A stretch of 64,000 bases of DNA, from the NCBI RefSeq assembly GCF_014696675.1, contig NZ_JACJQN010000022.1, positions 1 to 64,000 of the forward strand. The letters are read 5' to 3'. Below are positions 3,292 through 14,846 of the stretch, in pieces. The position numbers were made by a program, and so were the translations under genes. This DNA comes from Phormidium tenue FACHB-1052 (GTDB lineage Bacteria > Cyanobacteriota > Cyanobacteriia > Phormidesmidales > Phormidesmidaceae). The notes under the pieces are model-generated. The model did no database searches. It was given only the letters and a program-made list of their open reading frames with translations, and had not been told where the DNA came from. Numbering within the stretch: the stretch's first letter is position 1; each line of letters starts with the position of its first letter.

Positions 3292-3429
3292 TTACAGGGA
3301 GGCGGATTGAAACAGGGTTAGCCCCAGCAGACCGACTAACCCCAGCAAACTGGGCAGGGTGACAAACAAAAGGTTGCGGGCATCGTTGTGCGATCGCAGT
3401 GGATCTTGAAGCAGCTTAGAGTCATTCAT
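3292..3429 (-). CDS. Possible 45-residue single-span membrane protein
   Basis: An open frame of 45 codons begins MNDSKLLQDPLRSHNDARNL and continues with a hydrophobic segment (residues about 20-41, LLFVTLPSLLGLVGLLGLTL) before a TAA stop. A polar N-terminus and one clear transmembrane helix make it look like a small inner or thylakoid membrane protein. It lies about 80 bases downstream of the ABC ATPase on the same strand and could be the last gene of the sulfonate cluster, or a piece linked to the amine-oxidase relic just beyond it. I see no good ribosome binding site. I do not recognise the family and the call is tentative. Confidence 0.42.
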   Translation of the reverse strand: MNDSKLLQDPLRSHNDARNLLFVTLPSLLGLVGLLGLTLFQSASL

Positions 3430-3510
3430 GGTTATCGACACCAATTAGTAAACGGTACAGCCGTTAAACGGAATGCCCCAGTCTTGCCCCAAGCTGGGGT
3501 GCCATCAGCC

Positions 3511-4272
3511 CTACTTTTTCAGAATCCGGTGGAGAATTTCTTGCTTGAGCTGAATCAGCTCTGGGTTGGCCAAGTCGCGGGGGCGGGGTAGATTCACTGC
3601 CACATCCAGCTCAATGCGACCGTTTTGAATCACCACGACGCGATCGGCCAGCACCACCGCCTCTTCGACATCGTGGGTCACCAGCAGAGCGGTAAACTGC
3701 TGCTCTTGCCACAGGGTTTCAATCAACCGCTGCATGTCAATGCGGGTGAGGGCATCAAGGGCACCCAGGGGTTCGTCGAGCAGCAAGAGATGGGGCTGCG
3801 TCACCAGGGCCCGTGCTAGGGCGACTCGCTGTTTTTGTCCCCCCGACAGCACCGTAGTCCAGTCTTTGGCGCGGTTGTCTAGGCCCACCTGCTGCAAGGC
3901 CCAGTGGCTGCGGGGGCGCGCCTGCAAACTCAGGCCCAGCGAGACGTTCTCTAGAACATTGCGCCAGGGCAGCAGGCGCGCATCTTGAAACATCACCCGC
4001 GCCTTGGCATTAAGCCCCGCCAGCCGCTGGCCATCGAGCTTGATCTCGCCGTGGGAAGGGTTTTCTAACCCAGCCAGCAAGCGCAGCAGCGTGCTTTTGC
4101 CGCAGCCGCTCTTACCGACAATAGCGACAAATTCCCCCGGCGCAATTTCTAGGGAAAAGCGATCGAGCACCGTCAGGTCGCCAAAGGCTTTGGTCAGGTT
4201 GTTGATCCAAATGTGGCTGCCGTAGGTGGTTTGGGGGTGGTTTTGGGTTGAGGGGGTTTGGGTGTAGGTCAT
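3511..4272 (-). CDS. ssuB: Sulfonate/taurine-type ABC transporter ATP-binding protein (transporter 2)
   Basis: This 253-residue ATPase powers import through the permease encoded just upstream. Walker A (GKSGCGKST) is at 53-61, the Q-loop region [10 protein letters not shown] at about 94-103, the ABC signature LSGGQKQR at 142-149, Walker B with its glutamate (LLLLDEP) at 162-168, and the switch histidine in [10 protein letters not shown]. The sequence after Walker A ([17 protein letters not shown]) is typical of the SsuB/TauB/NrtD group. Substrate specificity within that group cannot be read from an ATPase; the sulfonate call comes from the cluster. It is separated from the permease by a large inverted repeat and from the next gene upstream by that permease alone. 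Confidence 0.88.
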
Positions 4273-4307
4273 GGGAGTGGGGAGTGGGGGTAGGAAGTGG
4301 GAAAGTT

Positions 4308-4372
4308 TTGAATGTTTAGGTTTGAGTTTTGAATTAGTGCCTTGAATTCAAAATTCAAACCTAAACATTCAA
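4308..4372. repeat. 28-base inverted repeat, intercistronic hairpin
   Basis: The arms 4308-4335 and 4345-4372 pair over 28 bases with a single mismatch around a 9-base loop. The arms contain the TTTTGAATT/AATTCAAAA unit found elsewhere in this window, with TTTAGGTTTGA outside it. It sits between the permease and ATPase genes of transporter 2, so it would form a long hairpin in that message. It resembles a small mobile palindrome more than a simple terminator: there is no T run. Confidence 0.8.
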
Positions 4373-4420
4373 GGCTAAGAACTAAGAACTCAAAACTAAG
4401 AATTAAATGCTTTCTCCCTT

Positions 4421-5230
4421 TCACTTCAGGTTCTGACTGGGGTGCCAGGCAATGGTGCTCTTCTCCAGCCAACGCACGGAGGAGTCGGCGAATTTGCCCA
4501 GCAGGGCGTAGAGCAAGATCGCGACGACCACTACATCGGTCTGCATGAATTCGCGAGCATTCATCGCCATGTAGCCAATGCCGGAGCTGGCGGCGATGGT
4601 TTCGGCCACAATCAGGGTGAGCCACATGTTGCCGAGGGCATAGCGCAGGCCCACCAGCATGCTGGGCAGGGCACCGGGCAAAATAATTTGCGAAAATAGC
4701 TGGCGGCGGTTGAGGCCATAGACGCGGCCCATTTCAATCAGTCCGGGGTCGATGGCGCGAATGCCGTAGAAGGTGTTGACGTATATAGGAAACAGCACCC
4801 CCAGTGCGACCAAAAAAATGCGGGCTTCGTCACCGATACCAAACCACAAAATCACCAGGGGAATCATCGCCAGGTGGGGGATATTGCGAATCATTTGAAT
4901 GGAGCTATCGGCAAGCAGCTCGGCGGGGCGAGAGACGCCGTTCAAAATGCCAAAAAATAGGCCGATGCTGCCACCAATTAAAAACCCCACTCCGGCCCGC
5001 CAGGCGCTAATGGTCACATGCTTAAACAGCTCGCCGCTGAGGGTGAGGCGAAGGGCCGCCTGCACCACTTCGGTTGGGGCGGGCAGAATGCGGCTGTTGA
5101 TTAATCCGATCTGGGCCAAGACTTGCCACAGCAGAATTAGGGCGGCAGGCACCACCCAGGGAATGATGTGATCCCACGGGACTCTGGCGATTAGCTCAGA
5201 AAGCGGGTCTCTACGGTGGATGGTTTGCAT
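4421..5230 (-). CDS. ssuC: Sulfonate-type ABC transporter permease (transporter 2)
   Basis: This 269-residue inner-membrane protein should form the channel of the second transporter. It has about six hydrophobic spans, starting with IIPWVVPAALILLWQVLAQI, and the characteristic SsuC/TauC features: the ILPAPTEVVQA loop after the first span, a GIGDEARIFLVALGVLFPIY stretch, and the EAA-type coupling loop around FSQIILPGALPSMLVGLRYA. The C-terminal tail IGYMAMNAREFMQTDVV is also typical. It is encoded just downstream of the SfnB/DszC-like oxidoreductase. Two 8-base direct copies of CGTTCAAG lie just before its start. The ligand is unknown. Confidence 0.88.
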   Translation of the reverse strand: MQTIHRRDPLSELIARVPWDHIIPWVVPAALILLWQVLAQIGLINSRILPAPTEVVQAALRLTLSGELFKHVTISAWRAGVGFLIGGSIGLFFGILNGVSRPAELLADSSIQMIRNIPHLAMIPLVILWFGIGDEARIFLVALGVLFPIYVNTFYGIRAIDPGLIEMGRVYGLNRRQLFSQIILPGALPSMLVGLRYALGNMWLTLIVAETIAASSGIGYMAMNAREFMQTDVVVVAILLYALLGKFADSSVRWLEKSTIAWHPSQNLK

Positions 5231-5296
5231 CGTTCAAGCGTTCAAGCGTTTTTAGGGTCTGGGGAACTAACCGGGCGAGGCAATATGACTAAGGGT

Positions 5297-6493
5297 TTAG
5301 GAATAAAAATCGGGGGTGGGTAACTCCCGATTGAGCGCCCAGTTGCCCACCGAGCGAATTTTGTAGTCGACTGGGTCGTGCAGGGTGAAGGTGCGGAGGT
5401 TGCGCCAGTAGCGGTCAAAGCCGTAGTCGGCGGTGGTGGCGCGGGTGCCCATGACATCAAAAATTTTGTTGGTTAGGGCCAGGCCGTTTTGGGTGACAAA
5501 GGCTTTGGCGGTGGCGATCGCCACCGCACATTTGCCTCGCTCCTCGGCGGTGAGGTCATAGCCTTTTTCCCAGGCGGCCTGGACTAACGCGGTGGCGCGA
5601 TCGGTGAGCAGAGTAGCGGCTTCGAGGGCGATCGCCATCTCGCCGTAGTGTTGCAGGATGTAGGGATCTTCGGTGGCCGACTCGACCTTAGACCCTGGCC
5701 AGGCCCGCGTCTGGCTACGGGTGTAGGAGCGCGCCGCCTCAAAGGCTCCTTGGGCCACCCCCAGATAAATGTTGGTGAAGGTAATTTGGGTGAGACAGGA
5801 GCGAAAGGTGCGAAACGCCTCATTACCGGAAGGAGCCAAAATTTCGTCAGCCGCCACCCACACGTTGCTAAAGCGAATGCTGCCGCTGTCGGTTTGCCGC
5901 TGGCCCATGTTGTTCCAGTCGCCCTGCACCTCAATGCCCTCGCGCTGGGTGGGCACGATCGCAATCCGAAAACCCTCTACGCCTTCTTGCACCGTGCTGA
6001 GCGCAATCACATCGGCATCGACGGAGCCTGAGCAAAAGCTCTTGGTGCCGTTGATGCGAAAACCCGCGCCATCGGGGGTGAGCGTCACCCGGCGATCGAG
6101 CGGGTTAAAGCCGTTGCACCAAAACCAGTTGTGCTGGGCGGTTTGGCTGTAGTAGTGGGCGGCCTGATCGGGGGTGCCATATACCTGGGGTGTAGCTACC
6201 CCCAAATGCTGGTACGAAAACAGGTGGGCCATGGAGCTATCCACCTGGGCAAAGCGGCGGGTAATGCGCAGGGCGGTTTCCCAATCGGCCCCGAGGCCGC
6301 CGTGCTGAGTTGGGATCAGCAGCTTCAGCAGGTTGCTCTGGCGCAGGCGATCGCGCTCGGCCTGGGCGGTGCCCCCCTGGCGATCGCGCTCTACCGCCGT
6401 GGCGGCAAATTCATCCACCAGGGTGTCAACCCAGGCGTCGATAGCGTGGGCCTGACTATCAGTCTGAAGCTGAGGCGAGGTGAGCAGCGGCAT
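5297..6493 (-). CDS. SfnB/DszC-like acyl-CoA dehydrogenase-fold flavin monooxygenase
   Basis: A 398-residue protein of the acyl-CoA dehydrogenase fold. The N-terminal helical part holds LLKLLIPTQHGGLGADWETA, the middle has FSYQHLGVATPQVYG and WFWCNGFNPLDRR, then INGTKSFCSGS in the beta domain, and the C-terminal helices include IFDVMGTRATTADYGFDRYW. There is no usual CoA-dehydrogenase catalytic glutamate context that I can identify. In this setting, beside SsuE and an SsuD, the nearest known relatives are the sulfur-acquisition SfnB group and the dibenzothiophene monooxygenase DszC group, which use reduced flavin and oxygen. The organosulfur substrate is unknown. It is in line with the SsuE gene (44 bases away) that could supply FMNH2. 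Assignment to this subgroup is inference from fold and context. Confidence 0.78.
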   Translation of the reverse strand: MPLLTSPQLQTDSQAHAIDAWVDTLVDEFAATAVERDRQGGTAQAERDRLRQSNLLKLLIPTQHGGLGADWETALRITRRFAQVDSSMAHLFSYQHLGVATPQVYGTPDQAAHYYSQTAQHNWFWCNGFNPLDRRVTLTPDGAGFRINGTKSFCSGSVDADVIALSTVQEGVEGFRIAIVPTQREGIEVQGDWNNMGQRQTDSGSIRFSNVWVAADEILAPSGNEAFRTFRSCLTQITFTNIYLGVAQGAFEAARSYTRSQTRAWPGSKVESATEDPYILQHYGEMAIALEAATLLTDRATALVQAAWEKGYDLTAEERGKCAVAIATAKAFVTQNGLALTNKIFDVMGTRATTADYGFDRYWRNLRTFTLHDPVDYKIRSVGNWALNRELPTPDFYS

Positions 6494-6536
6494 AGGTAAA
6501 GATGTTGAACAACAGACTCAATATAGGGTCACCAAC

Positions 6537-7085
6537 CTAGACAGCCGTGAGCACGGCAGGGAGCGATCGCACCAACCCCTCCAGCGAACTGTGCAGACGC
6601 GCTTCTAGCTCGGGGTCGTGAAACTCAATGCCGCCCGTCTCTAGCCGTTGAAACTGCGTATCGACCAGATACACGCCCTGGAGAATGTATGTGGCCCCGA
6701 GCACCCCCAGCACCGGATTGAGGGCGTAGTCGATCGCCAGCAAATGCGCCAGGGTGCCCCCAGTGGCGATCGGCAAAACCGGCTTGCCCACCAGCGCCTT
6801 TTGGGGCAGCAGGTCGAGAAAGGCCTTAAGAATGCCGGTGTAGGCCGCCTTGTAGATAGGGGTCGAAATAATTACGGCATCGGCGGCGGCAACCTGAGCC
6901 GTGGCGGCATTGATCACCTCACTGTCAAATCTGGCGTGGAGCAAATCCGCCGCTGGCAGGTCGCGCACCAGCAAAATCTCCAGTTCAGCGCCCTGGGTTT
7001 TTAGAATTTTCTGCGCCTCCTCTAGCACCGCGTAGGAGCGGGAGGGATGGGACGGGCTACCGGCGATCGCAACAACTTTTGTCAT
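6537..7085 (-). CDS. ssuE: NADPH-dependent FMN reductase, SsuE type
   Basis: The protein (182 residues) should reduce free FMN with NADPH and hand FMNH2 to the SsuD and perhaps the SfnB-like monooxygenase. The N-terminal AIAGSPSHPSRS is the flavodoxin-like phosphate loop. STPIYKAAYTGILKAFLDLL (about 74-93) is the SsuE signature. PIATGGTLAHLLAIDYALNP (about 105-124) contains Tyr120, at the position of the pi-helix tyrosine of E. coli SsuE. A GAGGT ribosome site lies 7 bases before the ATG. It sits between the ATPase of transporter 1 and the SfnB-like gene. No membrane segment is present. Confidence 0.93.
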   Translation of the reverse strand: MTKVVAIAGSPSHPSRSYAVLEEAQKILKTQGAELEILLVRDLPAADLLHARFDSEVINAATAQVAAADAVIISTPIYKAAYTGILKAFLDLLPQKALVGKPVLPIATGGTLAHLLAIDYALNPVLGVLGATYILQGVYLVDTQFQRLETGGIEFHDPELEARLHSSLEGLVRSLPAVLTAV

Positions 7086-7140
7086 GGTTAAACCTCAGAA
7101 ATTAATTCAAAGTTCAAAATTGAAAATTCAAAATTGGGTT

Positions 7141-7890
7141 TCACAGCTTCACCAAATCCAGCTCTGGCGTCAGGTCAAGCTCGCCAATTAGCTGTTCTTT
7201 CAACCGCTGAAACTCCAGGCTGCTGCGACGGCGAGGGCGGGGCAAATCCACCACCAGCTCGCGGTGAATGCGGCCTGGGTGCGGTCGCAGCACGATGATG
7301 CGATCGCTCAGCACCAGCGCCTCTTCGACATCGTGGGTGACTAGCAGCAGGGTGGGATGGTCTTCCGCCCAGATATCTAGCAGATGGTCTTGAAGCTGGG
7401 TGCGGGTAAAGGCATCGAGGGCGCTGAAGGGTTCATCGAGCAGCAGAATGCTGGGCTGGGTGACTAAAGCGCGGGCGATCGCCACCCGCTGCGCCATTCC
7501 CCCCGAAAGCTGTCGCGGCAGGGCCGCCGCAAAGTTGGTCAAATGCACCTTTTGTAGCGCCTGCTCCGTGCGCCACTGTTGCTCTAGTCGAGGCAAATCC
7601 TTGAGGCCAAACTGAATATTTTCAGCCACCGTTAGCCAGGGCATCAGCCGAGCCTCTTGAAAAATCAGCCCCACCTTTGGGTGCGGCGCGGTAATGATCT
7701 CCCCGTCGATCAACGCCGCCCCCAGGGTGGGAAAATCTAGCCCCGCAACAATCCGCAGCAGCGTGCTCTTGCCGCACCCGCTGGTGCCGACTAAGCTGAC
7801 TACTTCCCCCGGCTTGATCGCCAGATCAATGCCCTCTAGGGCCAGCAGGCCGTTGTCGAATTGCTTGTGAACGTTCTCGATGTAGAGCAT
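7141..7890 (-). CDS. ssuB: Sulfonate-type ABC transporter ATP-binding protein (transporter 1)
   Basis: The ATPase of the first transporter. I place the start at the ATG giving MLYIENVHKQF (249 residues). The open frame runs 70 codons further upstream, but that extension translates tandem repeats into proline/serine/threonine-rich sequence and overlaps the permease gene, so it is not credible. Walker A GTSGCGKST is at 35-43, the Q-loop region LIFQEARLMPW follows, then the signature LSGGMAQRV, Walker B LLLLDEP, and [11 protein letters not shown] with the switch histidine. The order in the cluster, SBP then SsuC then SsuB, matches ssuACB operons. Confidence 0.9.
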   Translation of the reverse strand: MLYIENVHKQFDNGLLALEGIDLAIKPGEVVSLVGTSGCGKSTLLRIVAGLDFPTLGAALIDGEIITAPHPKVGLIFQEARLMPWLTVAENIQFGLKDLPRLEQQWRTEQALQKVHLTNFAAALPRQLSGGMAQRVAIARALVTQPSILLLDEPFSALDAFTRTQLQDHLLDIWAEDHPTLLLVTHDVEEALVLSDRIIVLRPHPGRIHRELVVDLPRPRRRSSLEFQRLKEQLIGELDLTPELDLVKL

Positions 7891-7904
7891 TGGAGGGGGT
7901 AGGG

Positions 7905-8066
7905 GGTAGGGAGTGGATGGGTAGAGAGTAATGGGTGGATGGGTAGATGAGTAGGGAGAGGTCAGACTGACTGGGATTGGGAGGCTTACTAGAGGTCTCT
8001 TGCGGCAGCGATGAGGGCTTGTGGACGACCCCGTAATTCCCTCACCCGCCCACCCATCCACCCTCC
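7905..8066. repeat. Short tandem-repeat tract (GGATGGGT/GTAGGGAGT type)
   Basis: Imperfect repeats of GTAGGGAG, GGATGGGT and their complement fill the gap between permease and ATPase of transporter 1, with purine-rich copies in the first half and pyrimidine-rich copies (CACCCATCC, CTCCCACTCCCTACC) at the far end. The two halves could pair. This repeat family recurs near 8900, 20540, 39070, 39430 and 62810. Confidence 0.75.
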
Positions 8067-8072
8067 CACTCC

Positions 8073-8876
8073 CTACCCCGCGCCATAGGAATCTTGCCAA
8101 TGCAGCAGCCGACCACTAACCGCCGACAGCCCTGAATCGGTCAGTTTCCCTAACAGGGCAAACAGCACAATGCTGGCGATGATCACGGCGGGGCGTCCAG
8201 TGGTTTGGCCGTCGATTAGCAGGTAGCCCAAACCCTGGCTGGCCCCCATGAGTTCAGCGGCGACTACAAACATCCAGCCCAGCCCCAGCCCATTGCGAAG
8301 CCCGACTAAATAAGCTGGCAGCGTAGCGGGGAGGAATACGCGGCGAACGAGCTGTAGCTGGCTAAGGCGATAGATTTTGCCGACCTCTACTAGCTTGCGA
8401 TCGACCCCCTGAATGCCACTCATCAGGTTGAGGTAAACCGGAAAGAACACCCCCACCGCAATCAGCGTCACCTTCGAGCTTTCATAAATGCCCAGCCAGA
8501 GAATAAACAGCGGCACCCAGGCGATCGAGGGAATGTTGCGCAGGGCTTGCAGCAGCGGATCTAAATAGGCATGGGCAATGCGGGAGTAGCCCGTCAGCGC
8601 CCCCAGCACCGTCGCCACCAGGGTGCCAATGCCAAACCCGAGCACGACTCGGTAAAAAGTGATGCCCACGTGGCGAAACAACTCGCCACTGCGAGCCATC
8701 GTCAGAATGGTCTCCAACACCGTCGTGGGGGCAGGCAGCAGGTTAGGGGCCACTAGCCCGAGCCGAGAGAGCAGTTCCCAAGCGGCTACCAGTGCGATCG
8801 GCAGTAGCCAGCCCTGGAGAGAGCGGGGAACGGCGAGGCGCTGTTTGGTTGTGCGACGGGAGAGGGAGAGGGACAT
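8073..8876 (-). CDS. ssuC: Sulfonate-type ABC transporter permease (transporter 1)
   Basis: A 267-residue inner-membrane permease. A basic N-terminus leads into LLPIALVAAWELLSRLGLVA, then the NLLPAPTTVLETI loop, five more hydrophobic spans and the coupling loop RVFLPATLPAYLVGLRNGLG. IGTLVATVLGALTGY and ILWLGIYESSKVTLIAVGVFF are family-typical. It is encoded between the SBP3 gene and its ATPase, so it most likely works with both. It is clearly a paralogue of the permease of transporter 2 but not a recent copy. The start shown follows STRR-type repeat DNA; the basic residues directly after Met fit a positive-inside N-terminus. Confidence 0.9.
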   Translation of the reverse strand: MSLSLSRRTTKQRLAVPRSLQGWLLPIALVAAWELLSRLGLVAPNLLPAPTTVLETILTMARSGELFRHVGITFYRVVLGFGIGTLVATVLGALTGYSRIAHAYLDPLLQALRNIPSIAWVPLFILWLGIYESSKVTLIAVGVFFPVYLNLMSGIQGVDRKLVEVGKIYRLSQLQLVRRVFLPATLPAYLVGLRNGLGLGWMFVVAAELMGASQGLGYLLIDGQTTGRPAVIIASIVLFALLGKLTDSGLSAVSGRLLHWQDSYGAG

Positions 8877-8889
8877 GGGATGGGGGAGT

Positions 8890-8996
8890 GAGGGGTAGAT
8901 GAGTGGGGGGTGAGGGGTAAGGGTGAAGGGTAAGGGGTGAGGCCAAATCTTTCTACCCCCTACTCCCCACTCCCTACCCCTTCACTCCCTACCCTG
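8890..8996. repeat. Short tandem repeats of GGGGTAAGG/CTCCCTACCC type
   Basis: The gap between SBP3 and the permease is made of iterated purine-rich units (GTGAGGGGTAAGGG) followed by pyrimidine-rich ones (CTACTCCCCACTCCCTACCC). The two halves are partly complementary. No gene is expected here. Confidence 0.75.
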
Positions 8997-10068
8997 CTGC
9001 AACTTTTTCAATGAATTGCGGATCAATCAAAGAGTCTACGACGGCGTTTATGTCAGTATCGGCAGGCACTACGCCGCTCTTTTTCAGCACGTCTCCGGCG
9101 GCGGTGATGGTGTCTTTGTGGATGGTGCCAATCACGCTATTTGACAGGTCGGTGCGCTCAAGCTGTTTGGCGGCCACATTTTTCTCGAGCCCTGCTGCTT
9201 CGGCCAGAATTGATTCGAGTTCTGCCGGGTTTTCGATCGCCCACTGCCGGGCTTTTTCGTAGGTGGCTAGCACTCGTTCAACGTAGGCGGGGTGAGCGTT
9301 GGCAAACTCTTCCCGCACGTTGAGAAAGCCATAGGTGTTGAGGTCGGGGTTGCGGAAGAAGAGCTTAGAACCCTGCTCTAGCTCGGTTTTGGCCATGTGA
9401 GGATCAAGGCCAGCCCAGGCATCGACATCGCCGCGCTCTAGGGCTGTTCTGCCGTCGGCGTGCTGCAGCTGCACGACTTCGATATCGGCTTCAGAGAGCC
9501 CGACCTGATCGAGGGCGCGCAGCAAGAAAATGTGGGGGTCGGTGCCCTTGGTGGCGGCCACCTTTTTGCCCTTCAGATCTTCGACTTTGCTGATGCCGGT
9601 GTCGGCACGGGTGACTAGAGCCGTCCACTCGGGTTTGGAGTAGATATAGACCGACTTGATCGGGTTGCCGTTGGCTTTGCCCAGCAGGGCAGCGGCCCCA
9701 GCGGTGGAGCCAAAGTCGATGCTGCGGCTGTTGAGCAGCTCTAGGGCTTTGTTGCTGCCCTGGCTCTGCACCCATTCCACCTTGACGTTGTCTTTGGCCA
9801 AGTCTTCTTCGAGCCAGCCTTTGGCTTTGAGCACCAGACTGACGGGGTTATAGTAGGCAAAATCGATTCGCACTACGCTGGGCGCGGCGGCAGCGGTAGC
9901 CCCTGAGCTAGCGGCGTCGCTGCTGGGGGAGGGTTGGGCGCAGCTGTTCAGCACCGCTACGCAAAAGGCGGTAGTGATGGCTAACATGCCTCGCAGCCAC
10001 TGTCGCCTACCCACCCGGCTCAAGGGACGCGGTAGGGACAAAAATCGAAGGTTATGGAACCGAAGCAT
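8989..10068 (-). CDS. ssuA: Aliphatic sulfonate-binding lipoprotein (SBP3)
   Basis: Periplasmic binding protein for the ABC system encoded directly downstream. I prefer the internal ATG giving MLRFHNLRFL (359 residues): an AGGTG site lies 7 bases before it, and it leaves a compact twin-arginine-like lipoprotein signal, GRRQWLRGM with arginines 21-22, a hydrophobic stretch, and lipobox LNSC with Cys43. A longer frame adds 41 residues of no recognisable character. The mature protein has the SsuA/NMT1 fold marks: IDFAYYNPVSLVLKAKGWLE, then DFGSTAGAAALLGKANG, DLKGKKVAATKGTDPHIFLL and ERGDVDAWAGLDPHMAKTEL. Ligand could be a sulfonate or another small organosulfur anion. Confidence 0.9.
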   Translation of the reverse strand: MLRFHNLRFLSLPRPLSRVGRRQWLRGMLAITTAFCVAVLNSCAQPSPSSDAASSGATAAAAPSVVRIDFAYYNPVSLVLKAKGWLEEDLAKDNVKVEWVQSQGSNKALELLNSRSIDFGSTAGAAALLGKANGNPIKSVYIYSKPEWTALVTRADTGISKVEDLKGKKVAATKGTDPHIFLLRALDQVGLSEADIEVVQLQHADGRTALERGDVDAWAGLDPHMAKTELEQGSKLFFRNPDLNTYGFLNVREEFANAHPAYVERVLATYEKARQWAIENPAELESILAEAAGLEKNVAAKQLERTDLSNSVIGTIHKDTITAAGDVLKKSGVVPADTDINAVVDSLIDPQFIEKVAAG

Positions 10069-10221
10069 TGCTACACCTATACTGGGTCGAAAACTGAAAG
10101 CGAAATTAGGAAATGCCGGAGCTGAAAAATAGATGGATTTCCCGGCAATACTGAGCGAAAGAGCTGTCCAGACTGGAGGCCGACCTGCCAAACTTGCTCG
10201 CCACCCCTCACCCCATTACCC

Positions 10222-11364
10222 TCAACTTGCCGGAGCGGGAACTTTATCGTTGGCCATAATTTCACCCAGCGGGCTGAGGTAGCGGCTGGGGGCTGCCGTG
10301 GGTAGGTTCTCCAGAGGCAACTTGGGGAATACGAGTTCGGCGAAGCGGTAGGCTTCTTCGAGGTGGGGATAGCCGGAGAAGATGAAGGTGTCGATACCCA
10401 GGTCGATGTATTCCTGCATGCGTTGGGCGACGGTGTCGGGGTCACCGACTAGGGCGGTGCCGGCTCCGCCGCGCACCAGGCCGACGCCGGCCCAGAGGTT
10501 GGGGCTGATTTCGAGGCTGTCGCGGCGGCCACCGTGGAGGGCGACCATGCGGCGCTGGCCTTCGGAGTCGGCGTGGGCCAGGGCTTTTTGGGCGGCGGCG
10601 ATGGTGTCGTCATCCAGGTAGCGAATCAGATCGTTGGCGGCGTCCCAGGCCTGGGCGGTGGTTTCGCGCACGATGACGTGCAGACGAATGCCGAAGCGCA
10701 GGGTGCGCCCGTGGGCTTCAGCTAGCTGGCGCACTTCGGCGATTTTTTCGGCGACTTGGGCGGGGGGTTCGCCCCAGGTGAGGTACAGGTCGACGTGCTT
10801 GGCGGCAATTTCTTTTGCGATCGCCGAGGAGCCCCCGAAATAAAGCGGTGGGTAGGGGTCTTGCACGGGGGGAAACAGCAGCTTTGCGCCTTTGACCGTC
10901 AGGTGCTGGCCCTCAAAATCCACCACTTCCTGCTGCATGACGCCGCGCCAGACTTCGAGAAACTCATCGGTGAGTTCGTAGCGCCCCTGCTTGTCGAGGT
11001 GCAGGCCGTCGGCGGCCAGCTCGTAGGGGTCGCCGCCGGTGACGACGTTGACCAGCAGTCGGCCCTTGGAGATGCGATCGAAGGTAGCCGCCATGCGGGC
11101 CGCCATGCCTGGAGAAGAAATGCCGGGGCGAATCGCCACCAAAAACTTCATGCGCTTGGTGACGGCAATCAGCGATGCGGCAGTAATCCAGGCGTCTTCG
11201 CAGGATTTGCCGGTGGGCAGCAGCGCCCCGGCGTAGCCCAACTGATCGATCGCACCGGCCAGCTGCTGTAGATAGTCGGCGGTGATGGCGCGACCCCCCA
11301 CAGCAGTGCCCAGGTAGCGGCCATCGCCGTGGGTCGGTATAAACCAGTGAATGTCGAGGCTCAT
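10222..11364 (-). CDS. ssuD: FMNH2-dependent alkanesulfonate monooxygenase
   Basis: The enzyme cleaves alkanesulfonates to aldehyde and sulfite with O2 and FMNH2 from SsuE. It aligns by eye with E. coli SsuD along its whole length (380 against 381 residues): [27 protein letters not shown] with Cys55 at the place of the conserved SsuD cysteine, [83 protein letters not shown] and [20 protein letters not shown]. It belongs to the bacterial luciferase-like TIM-barrel family. The gene is the third in the cluster after two binding proteins. This is one of the firmest calls in the window. Confidence 0.97.
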
Positions 11365-11486
11365 AGCAGTGAAAAACGCAGAGAGAACAACAAAGAGAAA
11401 AGACGTAGGAGAGAGTCAGAAGCGCATGCGCAGTGTTTGAGCTGTATCGGCCCTACGTCAAGCTTTAGTGCCTTGGTAGGCATTAC

Positions 11487-12611
11487 CTAGCCGTTCCAAA
11501 TGACGGTGGATACATCAATTTCTTTGGGAATCAGCTGTAGGTCGTAGAAGGTGTCGGCGATGTCTTGCTGGTAGGTCACGACCTCGTCGGTGATGGACTG
11601 AATGCCATAGCCGCGACGACTTTCCACCAGATCCAGCACGTCGGTGGGAATCCCCAGCTCGTTGGACAAAAACTTAGAGACCTCGGCGGGGTTTTCTTTG
11701 GCAAAGGTGCTGATCGTTTCGGCCTCTTCTAAAACCGCCTTGAGTACGTCGGGCTGGCTATCGGCAAAGGATTTGGTGGCGAGATAGAAGCCTCGATTGC
11801 GGGCGATGCCTTTGCCGTCGCGCAGCGTTCTGGCTCCCAGCTGCTTTTCTGCTGCTCCCTGAAAGGGATCCCAGATCACCCAGGCATCGACGCTATTTTG
11901 CTCAAAGGCTGAGCGAGCGTCACCGGGGGGCAGGTAGGCAGTCTCGACGTCGCTGTACTGCAAACCCGCTTCTTCTAAGGCTTTGACCAGCAGGTAGTGG
12001 ACGTTAGAGCCTTTATTGAGGGCCACCTTTTTGCCCTTCAGCTCGGCGACGCTTTGAATCGGCGAGTCTTTCTGCACGAGGATGGCTTCGGCTAGCGAAC
12101 CGACGTCTTCCCATGCGACATAGACCAGGGGGGCATCGGCGGCTTGGGCAAAGATCGGCGGGGTTTCACCCGTGTAGGCGACGTCAATGCTACCCACGTT
12201 GAGGGCTTCGAGCATTTGGGGGCCAGCGGCAAACTCGTTCCAGGTGATGGGGAAGGCCTCGGCCTCAAAGCGCTTTTCGAGGAGCTTTTGGTTTTTCAGC
12301 AGGTTCAGCACGGTCGATGACTTTTGGTAGCCCACCCGCAGCTGCTTGGTGGCAGCGGGGGCAGCACCACCGGCACCGGCTTGGGTCGCCCCAGTCTGGG
12401 CCTGAGGCGTAGACTCGCTGCTGCAAGCTCCCACCGCACCGGCCAGGGCCATGCCCCCTAAGAACATGCCGCCCTGACGCAGGAATCGGCGGCGGGAGGC
12501 TAACCCCCGCAACGCTGAGGTTTGGGACTGGCTATGGGAGTGGTTGTAGCGAGGCACAATCTGCAAAGCTTTTTCAAACTCCGGTTTTTCAAAATTCATG
12601 AATGGGCTCAA
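11487..12611 (-). CDS. Aliphatic sulfonate-binding Tat lipoprotein (SBP2)
   Basis: Substrate-binding protein of the SsuA/TauA class, 374 residues. The signal has a long polar n-region, then twin arginines in ASRRRFLRQGG (about 39-49), a hydrophobic core and lipobox VGAC with Cys63, so it is probably a Tat-exported lipoprotein. Family marks follow: LRVGYQKSSTVLNLLK, LEALNVGSIDVAYTGETPPI, ELKGKKVALNKGSNVHYLLV and ARSAFEQNSVDAWVIWDPFQ. It is a close paralogue of the gene 23 bases upstream. Neither has its own permease next to it, so both may feed transporter 1 or 2. Specific ligand unknown. Confidence 0.9.
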   Translation of the reverse strand: MSPFMNFEKPEFEKALQIVPRYNHSHSQSQTSALRGLASRRRFLRQGGMFLGGMALAGAVGACSSESTPQAQTGATQAGAGGAAPAATKQLRVGYQKSSTVLNLLKNQKLLEKRFEAEAFPITWNEFAAGPQMLEALNVGSIDVAYTGETPPIFAQAADAPLVYVAWEDVGSLAEAILVQKDSPIQSVAELKGKKVALNKGSNVHYLLVKALEEAGLQYSDVETAYLPPGDARSAFEQNSVDAWVIWDPFQGAAEKQLGARTLRDGKGIARNRGFYLATKSFADSQPDVLKAVLEEAETISTFAKENPAEVSKFLSNELGIPTDVLDLVESRRGYGIQSITDEVVTYQQDIADTFYDLQLIPKEIDVSTVIWNG

Positions 12612-12634
12612 CTTTGGTGAATGGCAGTGGGGAG

Positions 12635-13702
12635 TTAGGCGAGGAGGTTGGCAGCAGACGGCTTCAGCCGGGCCGAGGTAGCTGAGCTGGGGGTCCAGAT
12701 CACGTCTTGCACGCGCACCGCTTTAGGAATTAGCGCTAGCTCGTAGAAGGCGTCGGCAATGCGCTGCTGCTCTGCGATCGCCTCGGTCTGCACCGGGTCA
12801 AAGATCCAGGTGCGGCGGCGGGTGACCACATCTAAAATCTCTGGCTCTAGGCCGGTGATGGGGGCCAGCACCTCCACCACTTCGGCGGGGCTGTTGTCGG
12901 CCCACTGGGCAACCTCAGCGGTATCTTCGAGCAGGGCCACCAGCAGCGCTTCGTTGTCGGCCACGAAGGCTTTAGAGGCCAGGAAAAACTCTCGGTTGGG
13001 GGCTAGCCCTTCCCCGGTGGCCAGGGTGCGCGCCCCTACCTGTTTCTCTGAGGCCGCGTAGAAGGGATCCCAAATGCCCCAGGCATCGATGTTGTTTTGC
13101 TCGAAGGCAGAGCGGGCATCGGCGGGGGTGAGGTTCACCGGCTCAATGTCTGACCAGGCTAACCCGGCTTTTTTGAGCGCCTGCACCACCAAAAAGTGAG
13201 CGCTGGAGCCACGCTGAAAGGCCACCTTTTTGCCTTTGAGATCGGCTAGGGTTTGCACCGACGAATCGGCCTGCACCACAATGGCCGAACTCTTGGGTCG
13301 GGGTGCGCCGCTGCCGACATAGAAAAAGGGCGTGTCCGCTGCTTGGGCAAAAACCGGGGGGGCATCGCCGGTGCGGCCAATGTCGATGCTGCCAACGTTC
13401 AACGCCTCTAGCAGGGGCGGCCCCGACTGAAATTCAATCCACTCGACGCGGGTGCCAAAGGCCTTCAGCCGTTCCTCAAGCCCGCCCCGCGCTTTGATCA
13501 AGATGAACGGGTCAAACTTTTGGTGGCCAATGCGTAGCACCTTGGCTTTGGCGGTGGTGGCCTGGGGCTCGGTGCTGGTAGTGGAGTCGCTGCTACAGGC
13601 GGTGACTGCTGCACTCAGCCCCATGCCGCTGGCAAATAAATAGGCAAACGACTTTAGCGACTGTCGCCGAGTAAGCCCCCAAGCTGGGCGATGCTGTGCC
13701 AT
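12635..13702 (-). CDS. Aliphatic sulfonate-binding Tat lipoprotein (SBP1)
   Basis: First gene of the organosulfur cluster, 355 residues. Signal: GLTRRQSLKSFAYLFASG with arginines 12-13, lipobox VTAC with Cys36. Mature part: VLRIGHQKFDPFILIKARGG, LEALNVGSIDIGRTGDAPPV, DLKGKKVAFQRGSSAHFLVV and ARSAFEQNNIDAWGIWDPFY, the same landmarks as SBP2, showing tandem duplication. The differences lie in ligand-lining loops (GRTGDAPPVFAQAADTPFFY against AYTGETPPIFAQAADAPLVY), so the pair may bind different sulfonates. Promoter signals should lie in the 370 bases upstream, where a palindrome is found. Confidence 0.9.
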   Translation of the reverse strand: MAQHRPAWGLTRRQSLKSFAYLFASGMGLSAAVTACSSDSTTSTEPQATTAKAKVLRIGHQKFDPFILIKARGGLEERLKAFGTRVEWIEFQSGPPLLEALNVGSIDIGRTGDAPPVFAQAADTPFFYVGSGAPRPKSSAIVVQADSSVQTLADLKGKKVAFQRGSSAHFLVVQALKKAGLAWSDIEPVNLTPADARSAFEQNNIDAWGIWDPFYAASEKQVGARTLATGEGLAPNREFFLASKAFVADNEALLVALLEDTAEVAQWADNSPAEVVEVLAPITGLEPEILDVVTRRRTWIFDPVQTEAIAEQQRIADAFYELALIPKAVRVQDVIWTPSSATSARLKPSAANLLA

Positions 13703-14069: not shown

Positions 14070-14846
14070 TCAAGGGGTTAGATGGAGCGGTAAGCCGTCT
14101 TGAAAGACCAGCAACTCACCGGGCTGGATGGGAGTCCAATCCTCGTTGTCGGTGAGGGAAGTGGTGGCGATCACGGCGACGCGATCGCTCGGGGTGGTCA
14201 GCTCTTGAAAATCCACCGTAATGTCTTCGTCAATTAGGTGGGCGGCGGCAAAAGGTGCCTGGCGCACGATGTAGCAGAGCTTGGTGGAGCAGTGGGCAAA
14301 GCAGTGTTCGCCATCCGACAGCAAATAGTTGAAGATGCCGTGGGGGGCGATCGCCGCCGTAATCTCTTGCAGGGCGAGGTATAGGTCTTGAATGGGGGGT
14401 TTGCGATCGGGGAACCGCTGCCGAATGTGGTTGAGTATGAGGCAAAAGGCCTGCTCGCTGTCGGTTTGCCCCACCGGGCGGTAGATGCCCTGGTGGTCGC
14501 AGGGCAGCGTCGGCAGATCGCCGTTGTGGGCAAACACCCAGTAGCGCCCCCACAGCTCTCGCTTAAAGGGGTGGCAGTTTTCGAGCTTGACTGGCCCAAT
14601 GGTGGCCTTGCGAATGTGGGCAATCACGTTCGTCGATTTGATTGGGTATTGCCGAATGAAGGCGGCCACGGGCGAGGCGCTAGACGGGTTGTCGTCGAGA
14701 AACACCCGACAGCCTAGACCTTCAAAAAAGGCGATGCCCCAGCCGTCTTTGTGGTCGTCGGTTTTGCCCCCGCGCGCACAAAACCCCTCAAAGGAGAAGC
14801 AAATATCAGTGGGCACATTGCAGTTCATCCCCAACAGCTGGCACAT
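14070..14846 (-). CDS. Class II glutamine amidotransferase, YafJ/EgtC-like
   Basis: A 258-residue N-terminal-nucleophile amidotransferase. Cys2 directly after the initiator Met (MCQLLGMNCN) is the expected catalytic nucleophile. RGGKTDDHKDGWGIAFFEG, NVIAHIRKATIGPV and WVFAHNGDLPTLPC (the AHNG motif that holds the glutamine) and GQTDSEQAFCLIL are all family marks. There is no synthase domain, so the ammonia acceptor is unknown. The YafJ group is best known as stand-alone proteins of unclear function; the ergothioneine enzyme EgtC is a relative but no egt genes are here. The gene lies downstream of a DsbA-like gene on the same strand, 185 bases away. Confidence 0.88.
   Translation of the reverse strand: MCQLLGMNCNVPTDICFSFEGFCARGGKTDDHKDGWGIAFFEGLGCRVFLDDNPSSASPVAAFIRQYPIKSTNVIAHIRKATIGPVKLENCHPFKRELWGRYWVFAHNGDLPTLPCDHQGIYRPVGQTDSEQAFCLILNHIRQRFPDRKPPIQDLYLALQEITAAIAPHGIFNYLLSDGEHCFAHCSTKLCYIVRQAPFAAAHLIDEDITVDFQELTTPSDRVAVIATTSLTDNEDWTPIQPGELLVFQDGLPLHLTP

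Follow-up and report, generated by a model that had tools for sequence, protein, structure and literature searches.

MsuC oxidises methanesulfinate to methanesulfonate and MsuD turns methanesulfonate into sulfite, with reduced flavin mononucleotide (FMNH2) coming from MsuE (PMC8234197, available in excerpt, as is every paper cited here). This MsuC-SsuD line has been described from proteobacteria (PMC13352529, PMC8234197). A cyanobacterial SsuD has already been tied to plant symbiosis: Npun_F5882 of Nostoc punctiforme, in a predicted operon with sulfonate transporters, is required for moss colonisation (PMC7784912). The window analysed here is a stretch of 64,000 nucleotides from Phormidium tenue FACHB-1052 (contig NZ_JACJQN010000022.1, positions 1 to 64,000; host genome 5.82 Mb), in which ten genes on the minus strand, running from 13702 to 3511, form an organosulfur island. 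Their order is SBP1, SBP2, ssuD, SBP3, ssuC1, ssuB1, ssuE, a gene for a protein of the acyl-CoA dehydrogenase (ACAD) fold, ssuC2 and ssuB2, where SBP is a binding protein. All ten lie where the original prediction had put them. Since the same gene frame recurs in Nodosilinea and Leptolyngbya relatives, the island is not a product of chance; Nodosilinea strains are the closest named relatives by the ACAD-fold protein (92-93% identity).

The island probably, with room left for doubt, encodes a pathway that scavenges sulfur from small alkanesulfonates and alkanesulfinates, in which an MsuC-like enzyme and SsuD act in series and two importers serve one line. SsuE would supply FMNH2 to both oxygenases. 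The MsuC-like enzyme would oxygenate the sulfur of a sulfinate, with methanesulfinate as the best guess, to give a sulfonate, and SsuD would split this product, as well as imported sulfonates, at the C-S bond to sulfite and an aldehyde. SBP1 and SBP2 with SsuC2 and SsuB2 would be the ordinary ssu importer feeding the shared line, and SBP3 with SsuC1 and SsuB1 a second importer on it, one that co-occurs with an ACAD-fold oxygenase. Every enzyme kind is already known; what is new is their joining to a second importer, the modular layout and the occurrence in cyanobacteria.

The ACAD-fold protein had been predicted to be an oxygenase and not a dehydrogenase, and the comparisons agree with this. 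Its top sequence match in the PDB was MsuC of Pseudomonas fluorescens (6u76), which scored 421 bits and is 51% identical across 374 residues. DszC scored 336 bits, 8cda 220 bits and annotated acyl-CoA dehydrogenase chains 64.1 bits or less, and an acyl-CoA dehydrogenase identity was rejected on the distance between this last value and the MsuC score. The fold search, with a structure model from a 6-row alignment (mean predicted local distance difference test score, pLDDT, 70.5), ranked the MsuC entries 6uug and 6u76 first (50% identity, template modelling score, TM, 0.86-0.87), followed by DszC and TdsC at 42-43% identity. His372, in the motif TLHDP, aligns with DszC His391. No Glu is present in the TLHDP segment; the ACAD glutamate column was placed by way of a motif, and the lone aligned ACAD-family protein also has no Glu there. 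The PDB scores and the His372 match support a putative sulfur monooxygenase of the two-component flavin type, not an acyl-CoA dehydrogenase.

The narrower label, SfnB/DszC-like, was right in the kind of flavin S-monooxygenase; SfnB or DszC as the closest relative did not stand, as MsuC is closer and both cut-offs were missed (370 bits against 850 on the DszC model NF043015, 278.7 bits against 430.9 on the SfnB model TIGR04022). The two scores could nevertheless be taken in favour of a DszC-, Dms- or SfnB-type S-oxygenase that acts on neutral sulfides, sulfoxides or thiophenes in a branch apart from SsuD, a reading that we regard as unlikely. P. aeruginosa MsuC scores similarly (349 and 274 bits, likewise under both cut-offs), and a plasmid DszC clears the DszC cut-off with 865 bits. 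In the alignment, 27 columns agree with MsuC but not with DszC; seven columns, Tyr at DszC position 96 and six others, show the reverse, the DszC side of this count being 2 rows only. The three-residue stretch that follows NASS in DszC is missing from the window enzyme, as it is from MsuC. Identity to the SfnB rows is just 21-32%. No DszA or DszB gene is found among the ten, and the host genome lacks SfnG at the threshold used and has neither SfnB nor an NtaA/DmoA-family enzyme above cut-off.

In a 52-row tree, the window enzyme falls inside a 20-row cyanobacterial clade (support 100/98), named MsuC-I. Separate groups are formed by SfnB (12 rows, 100/100), DszC (2 rows, 100/100), proteobacterial MsuC (6 rows, 97/99) and a second cyanobacterial clade, CyanoII (9 rows, 100/98), and there are two Rhizobium rows. 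L058 was kept and lies outside every named group; a second Methylocystis ACAD, L060 (an odd sequence) and L051 (a partial gene on a 4-kb contig) were left out. Seven columns (DszC positions 92, 96, 129, 161, 163, 205 and 391), which we take to be those of the active site, were then read across the groups. They spell HYNFSWH in 20/20 MsuC-I, 2/2 DszC and 2/2 Rhizobium rows, HFNFSWH in 6/6 MsuC references and QNNFTWH in 9/9 CyanoII rows. The SfnB rows have Gln at position 92 (12/12) and Tyr at 161 (11/12), where the window enzyme has His and Phe. Of the seven columns, only DszC His391 is backed by a paper (PMC11134501). The window residue at position 96 is Y94 by a 54-row alignment and a gap-free neighbourhood, a smaller alignment having read Q. 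Several members of the CyanoII clade (L052-L057, L059, L082; QNNFTWH) lie near a divergent SsuA-type binding protein. Two candidate identities were rejected: DszC-type thiophene desulfurisation, by the lack of DszA/DszB among the ten genes, the missed DszC cut-off and the separate clade, and SfnB, by its own missed cut-off, the different site residues and the separate clade.

Some of these results speak against an MsuC identity. MsuC-I and proteobacterial MsuC are joined at 69/82 only, and the approximately unbiased (AU) test does not firmly reject MsuC-I with DszC (p 0.055) or with CyanoII (p 0.20). Position 96 is Tyr in MsuC-I, as in DszC, and Phe in the six MsuC references. Since the unassigned Rhizobium rows also carry HYNFSWH, the signature is not specific to MsuC-I. 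On balance, the sequence evidence favours MsuC-type chemistry for the ACAD-fold enzyme, with membership in MsuC not proven.

For the second oxygenase, the top PDB matches were MsuD (7jv3) and E. coli SsuD, about equal at 564 and 547 bits. Window SsuD keeps 12 of the 15 MsuD site residues checked, including R296, Y330 and E368, and has K for R51, K for H123 and H for R262. The second of these, Lys at the FMN-phosphate residue His123 of MsuD, is also seen in 4 of 31 other aligned SsuD rows. The ssuD gene lies five genes upstream of the MsuC-like gene, and the cluster also holds the FMN reductase gene, whose product SsuE is the sole match above the TIGR03567 cut-off in a search of the whole host genome. 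In the P. aeruginosa record, msuE, ssuD and the MsuC gene are consecutive and accompanied by sigma-54 regulators, and Methylocystis has the order ssuD-msuC-ribA-msuE with sfnG nearby. Since MsuC makes the substrate of MsuD/SsuD and the MsuE-MsuD-MsuC route is published, the two oxygenases most likely work in series and share SsuE, and not in the separate branch that the original prediction had reserved for the ACAD-fold enzyme. Its statement that ordinary ssu operons are without an ACAD-fold enzyme overlooks msuE-msuD-msuC.

Weighing against this scheme, A. baylyi MsuC has a low kcat and its deletion causes no significant growth defect; the authors suspect another substrate for MsuC, and free FMNH2 can oxidise methanesulfinate without enzyme (PMC13352529). 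The weak dimethyl sulfoxide activity of MsuC from strain ADP1 (PMC13352529) would also suit an oxygenase for neutral sulfur compounds. Moreover, since the host has no SfnG to form methanesulfinate, this compound would have to be imported or made otherwise.

The distribution was studied in a phylum-scale sample of 386 cyanobacterial genomes, for each of which the top 4 to 6 candidates were scored, and in 30 near relatives, 19 of them of the window's genus, with all candidates scored. ACAD-fold relatives at E 1e-60 or better occur in 20 of the 386 genomes, 15 of which have MsuC-I (14 placed by the tree and G376, locus L051, by the identity of its partial gene). SsuD above cut-off was found in 31 genomes, including all 15 with MsuC-I, which argues against an enzyme in a branch apart from SsuD. 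The two ACAD-fold-relative genomes without SsuD (G060 and G328) are not among the MsuC-I genomes. Some stretches are cut off by the end of a contig (L051, L061, L077 and the fragments L104 and L105), and some genomes of the genus Nodosilinea are incomplete, three of them at 83-86%.

The two importers of the island belong to different types. SsuC1 and SsuC2 share about 40% identity and belong to separate permease groups in a tree; type 1 covers 66-100% identity to SsuC1 and type 2 61-100% to SsuC2, with cross matches at 37-42%. SBP1, SBP2 and SsuC2 clear the SsuA/SsuC model cut-offs. SsuB2 misses that of PRK11247 (332 bits of 395), yet PRK11247 is the best of the 190 families it matched. The type-1 set remains under the importer cut-offs: SBP3 at 134.5 of 299 bits (PRK11553), SsuC1 at 207.5 of 347 (PRK11365) and SsuB1 at 213.7 of 395 (PRK11247). 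SBP3 clears only the broad TIGR01728.

According to the original prediction, the second pair, SsuC2/SsuB2, may import the substrate of the ACAD-fold enzyme. The genes do adjoin in the window, and a type-2 permease is present somewhere in 12 of the 15 MsuC-I genomes. Among the 386 genomes, however, type 2 is present in 30, of which 26 have SsuD above cut-off and 18 are without MsuC-I (two of the latter, G191 and G382, have a more distant ACAD-fold relative). A type-2 permease was also seen in 10 of 17 ssuD-centred stretches (from 39 SsuD rows), and a type-1 permease in none. In the same-genus genomes G397 and G401 (loci L103 and L104), ssuC2 directly follows ssuE, with no MsuC gene between. As SsuC2 also clears the E. 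coli-type SsuC cut-off, a transport role of this pair for the ACAD-fold enzyme is highly improbable. Judged by sequence and distribution, SsuC2/SsuB2 is the ordinary ssu importer, and the set linked to MsuC is the first one.

SBP3-SsuC1-SsuB1 is an MsuC-linked importer, the link not being strict. The type-1 permease was found in 6 of the 386 genomes, from 5 families, each time clustered with MsuC-I. Two of these genomes (G033 and G045) have a compact cluster ssuD-SBP3-ssuC1-ssuB1-msuC, and no type-2 permease was found in them. Outside the phylum, a divergent importer flanking an MsuC gene in Paraburkholderia is nearer to type 1 than to type 2 (binding protein 53% against 34% identity, permease 48% against 32%, ATPase 46% against 42%). 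Within the window's genus, type 1 is present in 6 of 19 genomes. Another member of the genus, G403, lacks both type 1 and an MsuC relative at E 1e-60; it carries SBP2, ssuD, taurine-type importer genes, ssuE, ssuC2 and ssuB2. Altogether, type 1 occurs in 11 of 411 distinct genomes, 9 with MsuC-I, 2 with CyanoII and none without an ACAD-fold oxygenase.

Two observations count against a type-1 importer devoted to MsuC. In G397 and G401, type 1 is present without MsuC-I, and a CyanoII enzyme follows ssuD; the G401 assembly is in pieces, and its CyanoII gene lies with ssuD and SBP3 on another contig. On account of these two genomes, the idea that type 1 and MsuC-I are coupled strictly one to one was rejected. 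In addition, none of eight alphaproteobacterial plasmid loci with type-1 relatives (read out of 113 matched records) has an MsuC of more than 40% identity; in one of them, an ACAD-fold gene of 38% identity is found nearby.

It is a real possibility, to which we give somewhat less than an even chance, that the type-1 importer serves SsuD with a different range of sulfonates and that its link with MsuC reflects the shared inheritance of a composite island. The alphaproteobacterial type-1 relatives are near ssuD in 4 of the 8 loci and next to tauD in 2 (both Azospirillum), with neither in the remaining 2. The retention of type 1 without MsuC-I in G397 and G401 points the same way, as does the type-1 permease itself, present in the stretch read for 11 of the 20 MsuC-I rows and missing from 9. 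Against this stand the exclusive pairing of type 1 with MsuC-I in the 386-genome sample (6/6, 5 families), next to 18 genomes that hold type 2 without MsuC-I, the joint absence of type 1 and an MsuC relative from G403 despite its ssuD and type 2, and the type-1-like importer flanking the beta-proteobacterial MsuC. The type-1 importer is therefore best called sulfonate-class, its cyanobacterial version going with ACAD-fold oxygenases. A sulfinate as its substrate is a guess, and the substrates proposed here for both importers are inferences.

A stronger proposal, that SBP3-SsuC1-SsuB1 is a dedicated importer of methanesulfinate or other small alkanesulfinates, feeding MsuC from outside in cyanobacteria without SfnG, seems doubtful. 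SfnG is present in 6 of the 386 genomes, 5 of them with MsuC-I. Of the 15 MsuC-I genomes, 6 have the type-1 importer and 5 SfnG, without overlap, and the other 4 lack both. This non-overlap has a chance probability of about 0.08 (a hand count, with related genomes) and is only suggestive as support for a sulfinate importer. In L039, L040 and L043, SfnG, an SfnB-type gene and MsuC-I share one locus; the SfnB-type gene of L039 clears the SfnB cut-off and those of L040 and L043 group with it in the tree. From their gene content, these three loci likely encode a dimethyl sulfone route.

The island varies among relatives in a modular way. In L107, L108 and L109, from the window's genus, the same frame carries extra parts at fixed slots: a CyanoII gene follows ssuD, SBP3 and ssuC1 are separated by taurine-type importer genes, and an NtaA/DmoA-family enzyme comes after msuC, with its own binding protein behind it in L108 and L109 (L108 and L005 are apparently one strain). 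Upstream of the island lies a gene (14070-14846) that looks glutamine amidotransferase-like by eye; G397 and G403, whose stretches reach that far, have it in the same place. Given the same frame, the fixed slots and the shared upstream gene, the island appears to have been remodelled in place. Since neither permease type was found at E 1e-50 in 12 of the 19 genomes of the genus, some of them incomplete, the island is patchy in it. Six related same-genus islands (L107, L108, L109, L103, L105 and L110) differ in their optional modules, with or without MsuC. Short CCCTACCCACTCC-like repeats are found in the island spacers (window 4258-4301, 7893-7930, 8057-8081 and 8957-8997) and also in the ssuE-ssuC2 spacer of G397 (L103 7477-7631), where msuC is absent; they may mark slots where modules come and go. 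Three related loci have an extra gene between ssuB1 and msuC (L041 10559-11380, L044 6987-7814 and L078 11047-11874), which is annotated as a methyltransferase in L078 and weakly matches such models in L041 and L044.

The families of the ten proteins were assigned with NCBIfam and Pfam models at their curated cut-offs (Table 1). The start of SsuB1 was moved from TTG at 8100 to ATG at 7890. The SBP3 open reading frame begins at 10191, and its likeliest start is the ATG near 10068 (translation counted by eye).

Table 1. The ten genes of the organosulfur island, with window coordinates and the basis of each assignment
Feature	Coordinates	Strand	Basis
SBP1, SsuA-type sulfonate-binding lipoprotein	12635..13702	-	PRK11553 300.7 bits (cut-off 299); nearest solved structure E. 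coli-type SsuA 2x26
SBP2, second SsuA-type binding lipoprotein	11487..12611	-	PRK11553 315.9 bits (cut-off 299)
SsuD/MsuD, FMNH2-dependent alkanesulfonate monooxygenase	10222..11364	-	TIGR03565 619.3 bits (cut-off 518.2)
SBP3, binding lipoprotein of the diverged type-1 importer	8989..10068	-	TIGR01728 267.5 bits; below the PRK11553 cut-off; beside SsuC1 in relatives
SsuC1, type-1 permease	8073..8876	-	Diverged; type-1 group in the permease tree
SsuB1, type-1 ATPase	7141..7890	-	NCBIfam/Pfam; start corrected
SsuE, NADPH-dependent FMN reductase	6537..7085	-	TIGR03567 226.9 bits (cut-off 164.05)
MsuC-like ACAD-fold (group D) two-component flavin monooxygenase	5297..6493	-	Sequence, fold, alignment and tree
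SsuC2, type-2 (ordinary SsuC) permease	4421..5230	-	PRK11365 357.5 bits (cut-off 347)
SsuB2, type-2 (ordinary SsuB) ATPase	3511..4272	-	PRK11247 332.4 bits, best match; cut-off of 395 missed

With the corrected SsuB1 start, the intergenic gaps are no longer than about 180 bases, and such short gaps make a single transcript of the ten genes plausible. Scans of the island for promoters and terminators gave results no better than shuffled sequence, with 2 promoter-like sites where 3.2 were expected and 12 terminator-like sites where the expectation was 11.3. SBP1, SBP2 and SBP3 begin, by eye, with a twin-arginine motif followed by a lipobox, which suggests lipoproteins exported by the twin-arginine (Tat) route. 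The ssuC2-ssuB2 spacer (window 4308-4372) contains an AT-rich, near-perfect hairpin with 28-nt arms, 96% complementary, and a 9-nt loop, and a related inverted copy lies between ssuB1 and ssuE (7103-7133).

If the proposed pathway is true, some cyanobacteria scavenge sulfinates and sulfonates, which are dimethyl sulfide oxidation products, through an MsuC-SsuD line. A sulfinate-specific importer, if true, would offer a handle on the unsettled substrate of MsuC, questioned in a 2026 paper (PMC13352529). The same-genus strains G000, G397, G401 and G403, which differ in the presence of the MsuC gene and of the type-1 importer, form a natural comparison panel. No open-access paper combining methanesulfinate with cyanobacteria was found, the subscription literature being mostly outside the search, and of the open-access papers on MsuC with an SsuD operon, or on methanesulfinate with an ATP-binding cassette (ABC) transporter, none is on cyanobacteria by its title.

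Compared with described systems, the island is like that of Npun_F5882 in having a cyanobacterial SsuD beside sulfonate transporter genes; the available excerpt of PMC7784912 mentions neither an MsuC-like gene nor a second importer type there. With Pseudomonas msuE-msuD-msuC (msuEDC), the window has in common the same three enzyme kinds, an FMN reductase, SsuD/MsuD and an MsuC ACAD-fold monooxygenase. It differs in that its reductase is of the SsuE and not the MsuE type, in gene order, and in having no sigma-54 regulator among its ten genes. A 14-kb P. aeruginosa stretch has no annotated sulfonate transporter, its gene table being incomplete, whereas the window has two importers and three binding proteins.

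A plasmid region of Synechococcus elongatus UTEX 3055 (L078) holds, within 25 kb, SsuD with SsuC2B2 and a run of SBP-SBP3-SsuC1-SsuB1 followed by MsuC-I. Unlike in the window, the two runs are separated by arylsulfatase and sulfatase maturase genes, the methyltransferase gene intervenes between ssuB1 and msuC, and no SsuE match is present in the stretch. Finally, the E. coli operon, whose gene names we take to be ssuEADCB, has counterparts in the island for each of its members: SBP1/SBP2, SsuD, SsuE, SsuC2 and SsuB2 match SsuA, D, E, C and B. Beyond these, the window also contains the type-1 importer set and the MsuC-like gene.

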